The notes below the pieces were generated by a model, which made no database searches, was not told where the DNA came from, and was given only the letters and a program-made list of their open reading frames with translations. Of a DNA stretch of 64,000 nucleotides, positions 12,198-15,775 are shown one piece after another (the stretch's first letter is position 1; each line of letters starts with the position of its first letter). The translations under genes and the position numbers were made by a program. This stretch comes from Chloroflexaceae bacterium (GTDB lineage: Bacteria > Chloroflexota > Chloroflexia > Chloroflexales > Chloroflexaceae), in assembly GCA_028282325.1 (NCBI GenBank), contig JANQID010000022.1, positions 1 through 64,000 of the forward strand, read 5' to 3'.

Positions 12198-13478
12198 GTG
12201 CCATATACCATTCTGATGGTTGCTCCAACCAGCTTCTTTGCCGACTACGGCGCCCATGTGCGCATATGGGAAGAAATCAAAGCGCTCCAGAAGTTGGGGC
12301 ATCGTCTGGTGTTGACGACGTATCACAACGGCGATGATATGCCCGGCATCGACATCCGACGCTCGTGGGATATTCCCTGGATCAAACGCGCGATGGTCGG
12401 GTCGTCGCGCCATAAGATCTATCTCGACGCTGCGCTGTCCTGGCGTAGCCTGCGGGCAGCATTGCAAGTGCGTCCGACAATCATTCACGCCCATCTGCAC
12501 GAGGGCGCGCTGATTGGCGCAGTTCTCAAGCGCATCCTGCGCGTACCGCTGGTTTTCGACTATCAAGGCAGTATGACCAGCGAGATGATCGATCACGGAT
12601 TTATCACATCGACCAATCTGCTCTATGCACCGCTCACCCGTATGGAGCGTTTTATCAATCGCCAGGCCGACGCGGTCGTCACCTCGACATATAACGCCGC
12701 AGCATTGCTGCGACGCGACAACGCAGTAGATACACGGCGGCTGCACACCGTCATCGACAGCGTCAACACCGATCGCTTTCGTCCGTTTGACGGCTCGCCG
12801 GAATGGGAAGCGCAGCGCCGCCAACTTCGCGATCAGCTCGGCATTCCCCAGAACCGCCGCATCGTCGTGTATCTCGGATTGCTGGCGCCATATCAGGGAA
12901 CGCAAGTTCTCCTTCAGGCGGCCCGCCGGCTGGCGCCGCGTATGCCTGATGTGCATTTTCTCATCATGGGGTACCCCGATCCGGCCAGCTATCGCGCCTA
13001 TGCCGAATCGCTGGGCATCGGAGACTGGGTCACATTGCCGGGACGCATTCTTTACAAAGACGCGCATTCTTATCTGGCATTGGGCGACGTCGCCGTCGCC
13101 CCCAAGATGAGTCTTACCGAGGGCAGTGGCAAGATCAGCAACTATATGGCGATGGGGCTGCCCGTCGTCACATTCAACTCGCCGGTTAGCCGTGAAATCC
13201 TGGGCGACATCGGGATCTACGCCGAGATGGGCGATGCCGACGATCTCGCCGACAAGCTGCAACAGGCGCTCGAAGATCGCGCGCTGGCTCGACGTGTCGG
13301 CGCCACCGGGCGGGCGCGGGCCATTGCCGATTTCTCCTGGGAACGAGCCGCCAAACAGCTTGACGCCATCTATGCGCGCCTGTTCGACCGGTCGGCTCGG
13401 CGGCACACCCATTCGCATGATCCCCAACGATGTGATCCCCAGCCGGCGACCGAAAAATCGCTGGAACAAGAGGCTTGA
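12198..13478 (+). CDS. Family 4 glycosyltransferase
   Basis: A 426-residue GT-B fold transferase. The N-terminal domain has HAHLHEGALIGA near residue 97. The C-terminal nucleotide-sugar domain has VYLGLLAPYQGTQVLLQAA and the GT4 donor motif region EGSGKISNYMAMGLPVV, ending in a typical SWERAAKQL helix. It transfers a sugar from a nucleotide donor, probably to a cell-surface glycan or glycolipid; acceptor unknown. The GTG at 12198 follows AGGAAAGG. It is a single gene; the promoter of the next transcription unit overlaps its last codons. Confidence 0.9.
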   Translation: MPYTILMVAPTSFFADYGAHVRIWEEIKALQKLGHRLVLTTYHNGDDMPGIDIRRSWDIPWIKRAMVGSSRHKIYLDAALSWRSLRAALQVRPTIIHAHLHEGALIGAVLKRILRVPLVFDYQGSMTSEMIDHGFITSTNLLYAPLTRMERFINRQADAVVTSTYNAAALLRRDNAVDTRRLHTVIDSVNTDRFRPFDGSPEWEAQRRQLRDQLGIPQNRRIVVYLGLLAPYQGTQVLLQAARRLAPRMPDVHFLIMGYPDPASYRAYAESLGIGDWVTLPGRILYKDAHSYLALGDVAVAPKMSLTEGSGKISNYMAMGLPVVTFNSPVSREILGDIGIYAEMGDADDLADKLQQALEDRALARRVGATGRARAIADFSWERAAKQLDAIYARLFDRSARRHTHSHDPQRCDPQPATEKSLEQEA

Positions 13479-13503
13479 CAAACCCACACCGACGACCTAT
13501 ACT
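13475..13503 (+). promoter_or_regulatory. Consensus sigma70 promoter of the mgtE leader
   Basis: TTGACA (13475-13480) and TATACT (13498-13503) are spaced by exactly 17 bp. The -35 box overlaps the stop codon of the glycosyltransferase gene. The transcript would begin near 13510, about 385 nt before mgtE. Confidence 0.8.
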
Positions 13504-13509
13504 CTTAAA

Positions 13510-13797
13510 GGTTTGGGGATAAATCCCAACCATCTTATCCGTGCGTTGAATGACATTGCGCCTGTGATGCGCAATTCAAACAATGGACTAGAGGACGAAG
13601 ACGTCGCATTTCTAGGGTCATCAACGCTTTCAGTAGGAAGTTATGGACGGTAGTAGACAGCACAATCAGTACAACCTGAGTTGCAGCGCGCAACGTGTGC
13701 GGTGCAGCAGTCGGTTGGCGGGTTTGCTCCTGCTGAGGTAGTTCCTATTCTTTCCCCTCAGTCCTCTCGCCCCGGCTGCTTATCGCCGGGTTTTTTT
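13510..13797 (+). ncRNA. Structured mgtE leader RNA, candidate metal-responsive element
   Basis: The leader contains several possible helices. One is TTGAA/TTCAA plus TTGCGC/GCGCAA with a bulge (about 13547-13579). Another is a CTAGA/TCTAG hairpin with inner GACG/CGTC (13588-13614). A long-range TAGGAA/TTCCTA pair (about 13635-13640 with 13742-13747) encloses about 100 nt, which itself holds CAGCAG/CTGCTG and CTGAGG/CCTCAG pairs. An intrinsic terminator follows. This layout is that of a riboswitch or attenuator controlling the Mg2+ transporter. I do not recognise the conserved core of the M-box, so the class is unknown. Confidence 0.6.
13771..13797 (+). terminator. Intrinsic terminator in the mgtE leader
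   Basis: CCCGGC (13771-13776) pairs with GCCGGG (13785-13790) and is followed directly by seven T. It lies about 98 nt upstream of mgtE and inside its transcription unit, so it is expected to be conditional. Confidence 0.85.
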
Positions 13798-13894
13798 AGC
13801 CTCCTGAAATGTGCGCTCCAATTCAGGCCCGACGTTCAGATCCGTCGCTCGCGCTATGTGCGCACGCGCCTTTGCAGCACGCAGGAGGTTATCA

Positions 13895-14935
13895 ATGCTC
13901 GCTATTCGCACCACTGTCGAGACGGGGGCGCTGCGCCCCGCTGTTGTTCGCACCCACAATATACCCGTAGCGCCGGTAGATGCCGGCCTGACCTATGCGC
14001 CCGCGCTGAGCTTTCCGCAGCACGCAACGACACGCCAGGCGATTGAAGCGCTGCGGCAGATGCGCCCGGAAGAGAATAGCATCTATTATCTTTATGTCAC
14101 CGACGCCGATCACAAGCTGGCCGGCGTTGTCAGCCTGCGCCAACTGGTTGTCGCCTCTCCAGATGCGCGCCTCGCCGATGTGATGGACAGCCGCGTGATC
14201 GCGCTGGAACACGACGCACCGCTCGATGAGCAGGCTCATATGCTGAGCGAGTCGGGCTTGCTGGCGTTGCCCGTCGTCGATGATGACAACCGGCTGATCG
14301 GTGCTATCGACGCTGGAGATCTGATCGATGCCATCGAGGATGAGGCGACTGAAGATATGTATCGCCTGGCCGGCGTCAACAAGGATGAAGAAATCGAGCG
14401 CCCCCTGGTACGCGCCGCCTGGGATCGCGTTTTCTGGCTGATGATCAATATGGCGACGGCATTTCTGGCGGCGTGGGTCGTCAGCAGCTTCGAGAGCGTG
14501 ATCGCGCAGGCGGCGATTCTTGCCGCATTTATGCCGGTGGTTGCCGGACAGGGCGGCAACGCCGGAACCCAGACGCTGACATTCATCGTGCGTTCGCTGG
14601 CGCTGGGCGAAGTAAGCTTTGCGAACGCGCGACACACGTTCTTGCGCGAATTGCTCATTGGCATGACGAATGGCGTAGCCATCGGCGCAATGGTCGGCAT
14701 GATCGGCTGGCTGTGGCAGGGAAGCATCGCCCTGGGACTGATCGTCGGCCTGGCAATGCTCGCGAATCTGGTGATGGCAGCGCTGGCAGGCGTGCTGGTT
14801 CCGCTGACGCTCAAGGCGGTGCGGATCGATCCGGCGTTGGCATCGTCCATTTTTGTCACCACGGTGACCGATGTCTGCGGCTTCTTCTTCTTCTTCAGCC
14901 TGGGTGCATTCGCTATCCAAAGCGGTCTGATGTAG
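13895..14935 (+). CDS. mgtE: MgtE-type magnesium transporter lacking the N domain
   Basis: A 346-residue inner-membrane Mg2+ channel/transporter. Residues 50-160 hold a CBS-domain pair (LADVMDSRVIALEHDAPL, LLALPVVDDDNRLIGAI). Residues 185-346 hold about five membrane helices with the family signature GGNAGTQTLTFIVRSLALGEV and the closing TDVCGFFFFFSLG. Usual MgtE proteins have about 450 residues with a superhelical N domain of about 130 residues that gates the pore; here it is missing or reduced to a short extension. The ATG at 13895 has AGGAGG 6 nt upstream. Expression is probably controlled by the structured leader and terminator directly upstream. Confidence 0.92.
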   Translation: MLAIRTTVETGALRPAVVRTHNIPVAPVDAGLTYAPALSFPQHATTRQAIEALRQMRPEENSIYYLYVTDADHKLAGVVSLRQLVVASPDARLADVMDSRVIALEHDAPLDEQAHMLSESGLLALPVVDDDNRLIGAIDAGDLIDAIEDEATEDMYRLAGVNKDEEIERPLVRAAWDRVFWLMINMATAFLAAWVVSSFESVIAQAAILAAFMPVVAGQGGNAGTQTLTFIVRSLALGEVSFANARHTFLRELLIGMTNGVAIGAMVGMIGWLWQGSIALGLIVGLAMLANLVMAALAGVLVPLTLKAVRIDPALASSIFVTTVTDVCGFFFFFSLGAFAIQSGLM

Positions 14936-15025: not shown

Positions 15026-15054
15026 TTGACATGCCCCCGCAAGCGTGCTAGAAT
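15026..15054 (+). promoter_or_regulatory. Consensus promoter of the pyr operon
   Basis: TTGACA (15026-15031), 17-bp spacer, TAGAAT (15049-15054). The predicted start is near 15061, giving a pyrR leader of about 170 nt. Confidence 0.85.
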
Positions 15055-15059
15055 GCAAT

Positions 15060-15775
<716 letters not shown>

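Follow-up and report, generated by a model that had tools for sequence, protein, structure and literature searches.

The mgtE gene and its leader

The stretch of DNA analysed here (the window; 64,000 nucleotides from a Chloroflexaceae bacterium) encodes a short form of the Mg2+ transporter MgtE, in whose product a Pfam comparison detected CBS and MgtE domains and no MgtE_N domain. The ATG start codon at position 13895 is preceded by AGGAGG, and a promoter and an intrinsic terminator lie upstream of the gene:

13475–13503, forward strand: sigma-70-type promoter, TTGACA (13475–13480), 17-nt spacer, TATACT (13498–13503), 11/12 consensus
13771–13797, forward strand: intrinsic terminator, stem 13771–13776 with 13785–13790, then seven T
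13895–14935, forward strand: mgtE, short form, 346 aa, Pfam PF01769 (MgtE) and PF00571 (CBS)

A first-pass annotation of this DNA had described the consensus promoter and the terminator with seven T ahead of the coding region, both of which are present, and had proposed an unrecognised metal riboswitch in between. A similarly spaced TATACT promoter occurs in 15 of 16 aligned leaders of relatives, and the mgtE leader RNA presumably starts at about position 13510. The terminator has the sequence CCCGGC-TGCTTATC-GCCGGG-TTTTTTT, with six GC pairs. Stable helices, several of which had been predicted, are also found; the region from 13511 to 13800 folds with −98.7 kcal/mol (z −2.3 compared to dinucleotide shuffles). 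No comparable leader was seen at the second mgtE gene of the window's genome.

An Rfam search of the whole window gave no match at gathering score, which speaks against the earlier suggestion of a divergent M-box or another known class. The M-box riboswitch (RF00380), which controls mgtE genes and occupies the same place in sister leaders, gave no match even at an E-value limit of 10, in agreement with the first-pass annotation, in which no M-box had been recognised.

Related leaders share a common plan

A DNA search with the whole leader retrieved the window itself as the sole match; relatives were therefore sought via the MgtE protein, and orthologues were found across the order, which public records name as Chloroflexales, Chloroflexaceae and Oscillochloris. 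Nineteen short-mgtE loci follow a common plan, in which a promoter (not seen in one of the 19, L016) is followed by a 5' structured domain, a Shine-Dalgarno sequence, a short open reading frame (ORF), usually a terminator, and mgtE. The ORFs ahead of short mgtE start with MEGSHQ, MDSSHQ, MDDYHQ, MDDSHQ, MDSTSH and similar sequences, and the same ORF type precedes long-form mgtE (MDSSHS, MDVSSH, MDGSHT, MDDHQP, MDSSYP), one of the genera concerned (g9) being presumably Chloroflexus. In two more families, a short ORF of related composition that is nearly leaderless starts with MSTDGS or MNADGHSS. In a series of mgtE leaders (L017–L030) the ORF begins about 8–10 nt past the −10 box and is thus almost leaderless, as in MSTDGSTTEDDPQQAELPLIG. 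In those mgtE leaders of family f4 that lie behind a hydrolase gene, a leader ORF is absent directly ahead of mgtE; at L172 and L186, an M-box and an ORF precede the hydrolase gene instead. In one relative (L007, 850–1500), a CRISPR-like array with the repeat GTTGTCCCCACGCCCGTGGGGGTGAACC adjoins mgtE.

A conserved leader ORF with a selected N-terminus

The part of the structured leader that the first-pass annotation had overlooked, and that is central to our reading, is the conserved ORF:

13635–13638, forward strand: Shine-Dalgarno sequence AGGA of the leader ORF; an SD-like sequence precedes the ORF in relatives
13643–13741, forward strand: leader ORF of 32 codons, MDGSRQHNQYNLSCSAQRVRCSSRLAGLLLLR (MDGSRQHNQ...), stop codon TAG at 13739–13741, identified on comparative evidence

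The mgtE leaders of relatives share a conserved motif, M-[D/E]-x-S-H-Q, at the N-terminus of this ORF; the window has MDGSRQ. Over the first 87 nt of the ORF, 31 of 32 leaders have frame 0 open; the two alternative frames are closed in 26 and 28 leaders. The ratio pN/pS is 0.30 at codons 2–8 and 0.94 at codons 9–29, and insertions ahead of the SH motif comprise whole codons. Acidic residues make up 22–34% of residues 2–6 and 3% beyond residue 8 of the leader peptides; basic residues account for 1% at first and then for 21–27%, being located at residues 7–14. Based on this comparative evidence, the leader ORF appears to be translated, with visible selection on its N-terminus only. The window peptide has a single acidic residue, D2.

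In the leader ORFs of these genomes, the conserved serine is nearly always encoded by AGT. The peptide reading offers no explanation for this preference, which may point to some constraint at the RNA level. This near-invariant codon would also suit an RNA element that merely resembles coding sequence, yet the conservation of the frame, the pN/pS pattern, the SD sequences and the whole-codon insertions all argue for genuine coding, and we consider such an element scarcely credible.

The leader ORF can pair with the terminator

The 3' part of the leader ORF is complementary to a region that comprises the 5' arm of the terminator:

13706–13722, forward strand: antiterminator strand inside the leader ORF (13706–13714 and 13717–13722), pairing with 13766–13780
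13766–13780, forward strand: antiterminator partner, overlapping the 5' arm and loop of the terminator, predicted pairing

In the window, AGCAGUCGG (13706–13714) can pair with CCGGCUGCU (13772–13780), and GGCGGG (13717–13722) with CUCGCC (13766–13771). An antiterminator formed by codons ~19–25 and the terminator 5' arm is predicted in most of 28 leaders, and the pairing exceeds that of codon shuffles (Fisher p 1e-4 over 14 groups), as it does in a second leader set composed of M-box and mgtC leaders (p 1.6e-5); for the window alone p is 0.083, and it is above 0.3 for several other leaders.

We then placed ribosomes on the leaders in silico. On average, 8.6 antiterminator pairs are left when an early ribosome is masked, compared to 0.6 when the masked ribosome stands eight codons short of the stop codon. 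For the full RNA of the window, folding favours the terminator in the free RNA, and masking of the first nine codons shifts the preference to the antiterminator. In full-length equilibrium folds, however, the terminator often wins despite an early ribosome, and the switch must therefore act during transcription. Three elements of a leader-peptide attenuator are found here, namely a short ORF (on comparative evidence), an intrinsic terminator after the ORF and a mutually exclusive antiterminator (significant at the level of the set), in the same arrangement as in trp-type and mgtQ-type switches.

An ORF combined with an antiterminator and a terminator is also the design of the trp and his leaders, and the SHQ codons are conserved, as one might expect if the ORF sensed charged tRNA (His, Gln or Ser) in classical amino-acid attenuation. 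However, the ORF lacks the run of one codon that marks trp/his-type leaders, H is replaced by R in the window and by Y in others, the downstream genes are Mg2+ genes rather than biosynthetic ones, and M-boxes adjoin the same ORF type. Sensing of an amino acid therefore seems very unlikely to us.

The 5' structured domain varies among relatives

Upstream of the ORF, the leader is predicted to fold into a 5' domain:

13510–13531, forward strand: P1 hairpin at the presumed 5' end of the RNA, predicted fold; most relatives have a hairpin there
13543–13627, forward strand: 5' domain closed by the long-range stem P2 (13543–13554 with 13617–13627)
13555–13575, forward strand: P3 hairpin inside P2, predicted fold
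13588–13615, forward strand: P4 hairpin inside P2, predicted fold

P2 (z −3.0 for the window) corresponds to a long-range pair described previously, which is real and longer than the 6 bp then assigned to it. Its 3' arm ends 10–18 nt (mostly 13–16 nt) upstream of the start of the leader ORF in 18/18 leaders tested, and its pairing is maintained in relatives by entirely different sequences. The consensus fold of the 5' domain in ten closer relatives has a z of −4.7. The interior of the domain varies among relatives in the number and length of hairpins, and a conserved unpaired core was not found across distant relatives. When a covariance model built on the 5' domain was run against 82 genomes of the order, it found only short-mgtE leaders plus background, and it matched the window weakly (17.1 bits); as the matches are confined to the short-mgtE subfamily, they offer no independent clue to a ligand. 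Chloroflexus leaders retain the ORF behind just ~40 nt of 5' RNA.

We propose that the 5' domain may govern how readily ribosomes reach the leader ORF, in place of the M-box of relatives, or that it may itself sense something. A stronger version, akin to the first-pass annotation, would make P1 and P2–P4 a new riboswitch for Mg2+ or another metal that replaces the M-box and directly controls translation of the leader ORF or termination. The position of the domain, where close relatives carry an M-box ahead of the same type of ORF, its conserved fold and the upkeep of the closing stem by unrelated sequences are consistent with this idea. On the other hand, the missing unpaired core, the variable interior, the restriction of the covariance model to one subfamily and the persistence of the ORF behind the short 5' RNA of Chloroflexus render it unlikely. 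As the main reading of the leader, an unrecognised metal riboswitch gives way to the part that is constant and conserved, i.e. the translated ORF with the antiterminator and the terminator.

The leader ORF is associated with Mg2+ genes and M-boxes

A search with the motif ATGGAHRRYAGTCAYCAR across 158 genomes of the class gave 12 matches, each of them within the order (82 genomes), compared to 0 control matches. All 12 lie in leaders of Mg2+ genes; ten were already known mgtE leaders, and the two new ones, ahead of an mgtC operon and ahead of an MgtE_N gene that also bears an M-box, belong to leaders left out when the motif was made. Outside the order, the exact motif occurs at background (two matches versus two control matches).

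The class contains 30 M-boxes in 28 genomes, with scores of 105–136 bits in relatives; none was found in the window's genome. On reading, 24 of the 25 M-boxes of the order are followed by an ORF starting with M-D/E, most with a His within the next residues; by a strict rule, 17 of the 25 have this ORF type, with 0.16 expected from shuffles. The M-box loci L167–L195 commonly show a tandem arrangement of M-box, terminator, M-D/E leader ORF, second terminator and Mg2+ gene. A literature search that covered few subscription papers returned no report of such a tandem of M-box and leader peptide, or of Chloroflexus leader peptides. With an M-box in the same position in relatives and mgtC or MgtE_N genes downstream, the earlier proposal that the leader regulates a Mg2+ transporter gene is supported, and this association with Mg2+ genes is the ground on which we infer a Mg2+ role for the leader of the window.

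Only one M-box of the order (L192) lacks an M-D/E ORF; MAHADPDGTQ takes its place there, preceding an mgtC gene, and the DPD of this peptide is reminiscent of the EPDP motif of mgtL. At another locus (L155, G038:C153), an ORF starting with MDSSHQ precedes a small rubrerythrin-like gene and an mgtC-family gene, and the only M-box reported in that genome lies on another contig.

A putative attenuator operated by a Mg2+-responsive leader peptide

Based on these comparisons, the mgtE leader likely attenuates transcription by means of a translated, Mg2+-responsive leader peptide, the translation of which probably decides between an early stop and continued transcription. The ORF, its selected N-terminus, the antiterminator/terminator pair and the link to Mg2+ genes lend this reading comparative support, and as far as sequence comparison goes the attenuator is well supported. 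Association and precedent lead us to infer that the signal is cytosolic Mg2+, acting via early pausing or drop-off of the ribosome. A point against this is that known destabilising motifs usually contain two acidic residues close together; the window peptide has one.

The RNA would start near 13510, and the 5' domain (P1, and P2 enclosing P3 and P4) would end just before the ribosome-binding site. A ribosome reading the ORF through would cover codons ~19–25 and preclude the antiterminator, whereupon the terminator at 13771 would form and mgtE would be off. Should no ribosome load, earlier ORF sequence would, in the window, pair with the antiterminator, and the terminator would form as well. 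In low Mg2+, pausing or drop-off of the ribosome at the acidic N-terminal codons would allow the antiterminator (13706–13722 with 13766–13780) to form, and mgtE would be transcribed.

To our knowledge, Mg2+-sensing leader peptides have been studied mainly in enterobacteria. Measured against those systems, the leader-peptide attenuator of the window appears to be new, although its general kind is known. Translation of mgtL, the leader peptide of enterobacterial mgtA, aborts at EPDP in low Mg2+, relieving termination (PMC11282234). The window resembles mgtL in having a leader ORF before a Mg2+ transporter gene and acidic residues in the first codons, the latter by virtue of D2 alone. It differs in its MDGSRQ, where acidic or proline residues do not stand next or nearly next to each other as they do in EPDP or DxE, in its intrinsic rather than Rho-dependent terminator, in transporter family and phylum, and in a Mg2+ response that is here a prediction. 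mgtL-like, near-adjacent acidic residues do occur in M-box relatives (MDEGGH, MEEGGSH). mgtQ of Salmonella mgtCBRU has Asp2 and Glu5 and alternative stem-loops 1:2 and 3:4 or 2:3 (PMC8092293); the window shares Asp at codon 2 and alternative stem-loops around the ORF, whereas mgtQ is intergenic, has 8 codons and acts on mgtB translation, and we propose transcription attenuation. mgtM and mgtP are tandem attenuators of mgtCBR with ATP and proline as signals (PMC3641672), two sensors in tandem like the M-box and leader ORF of Chloroflexales relatives, but the upstream module of the window is not an M-box.

If our reading is true, translation-based Mg2+ sensing arose or persisted far from enterobacteria, in an order of another phylum and in tandem with the M-box, and the many natural variants could serve to test which of the first residues cause ribosome failure when Mg2+ is low. 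In a wider and rather doubtful scheme, Mg2+-sensing leader peptides would be a common output stage in Chloroflexales, preceded by an M-box plus a terminator of its own, by a novel structured domain or by no 5' module, and the 5' domain of the window would be a new Mg2+ sensor replacing the M-box; two Mg2+ checks would then operate in series.

Beyond mgtE, the region 15026–15179 contains a promoter (TTGACA-17-TAGAAT) followed by a sub-threshold match to the PyrR binding site (38.8 bits, gathering 54), with a pyrR-like gene downstream at 15233 and pyrimidine-type genes after it.
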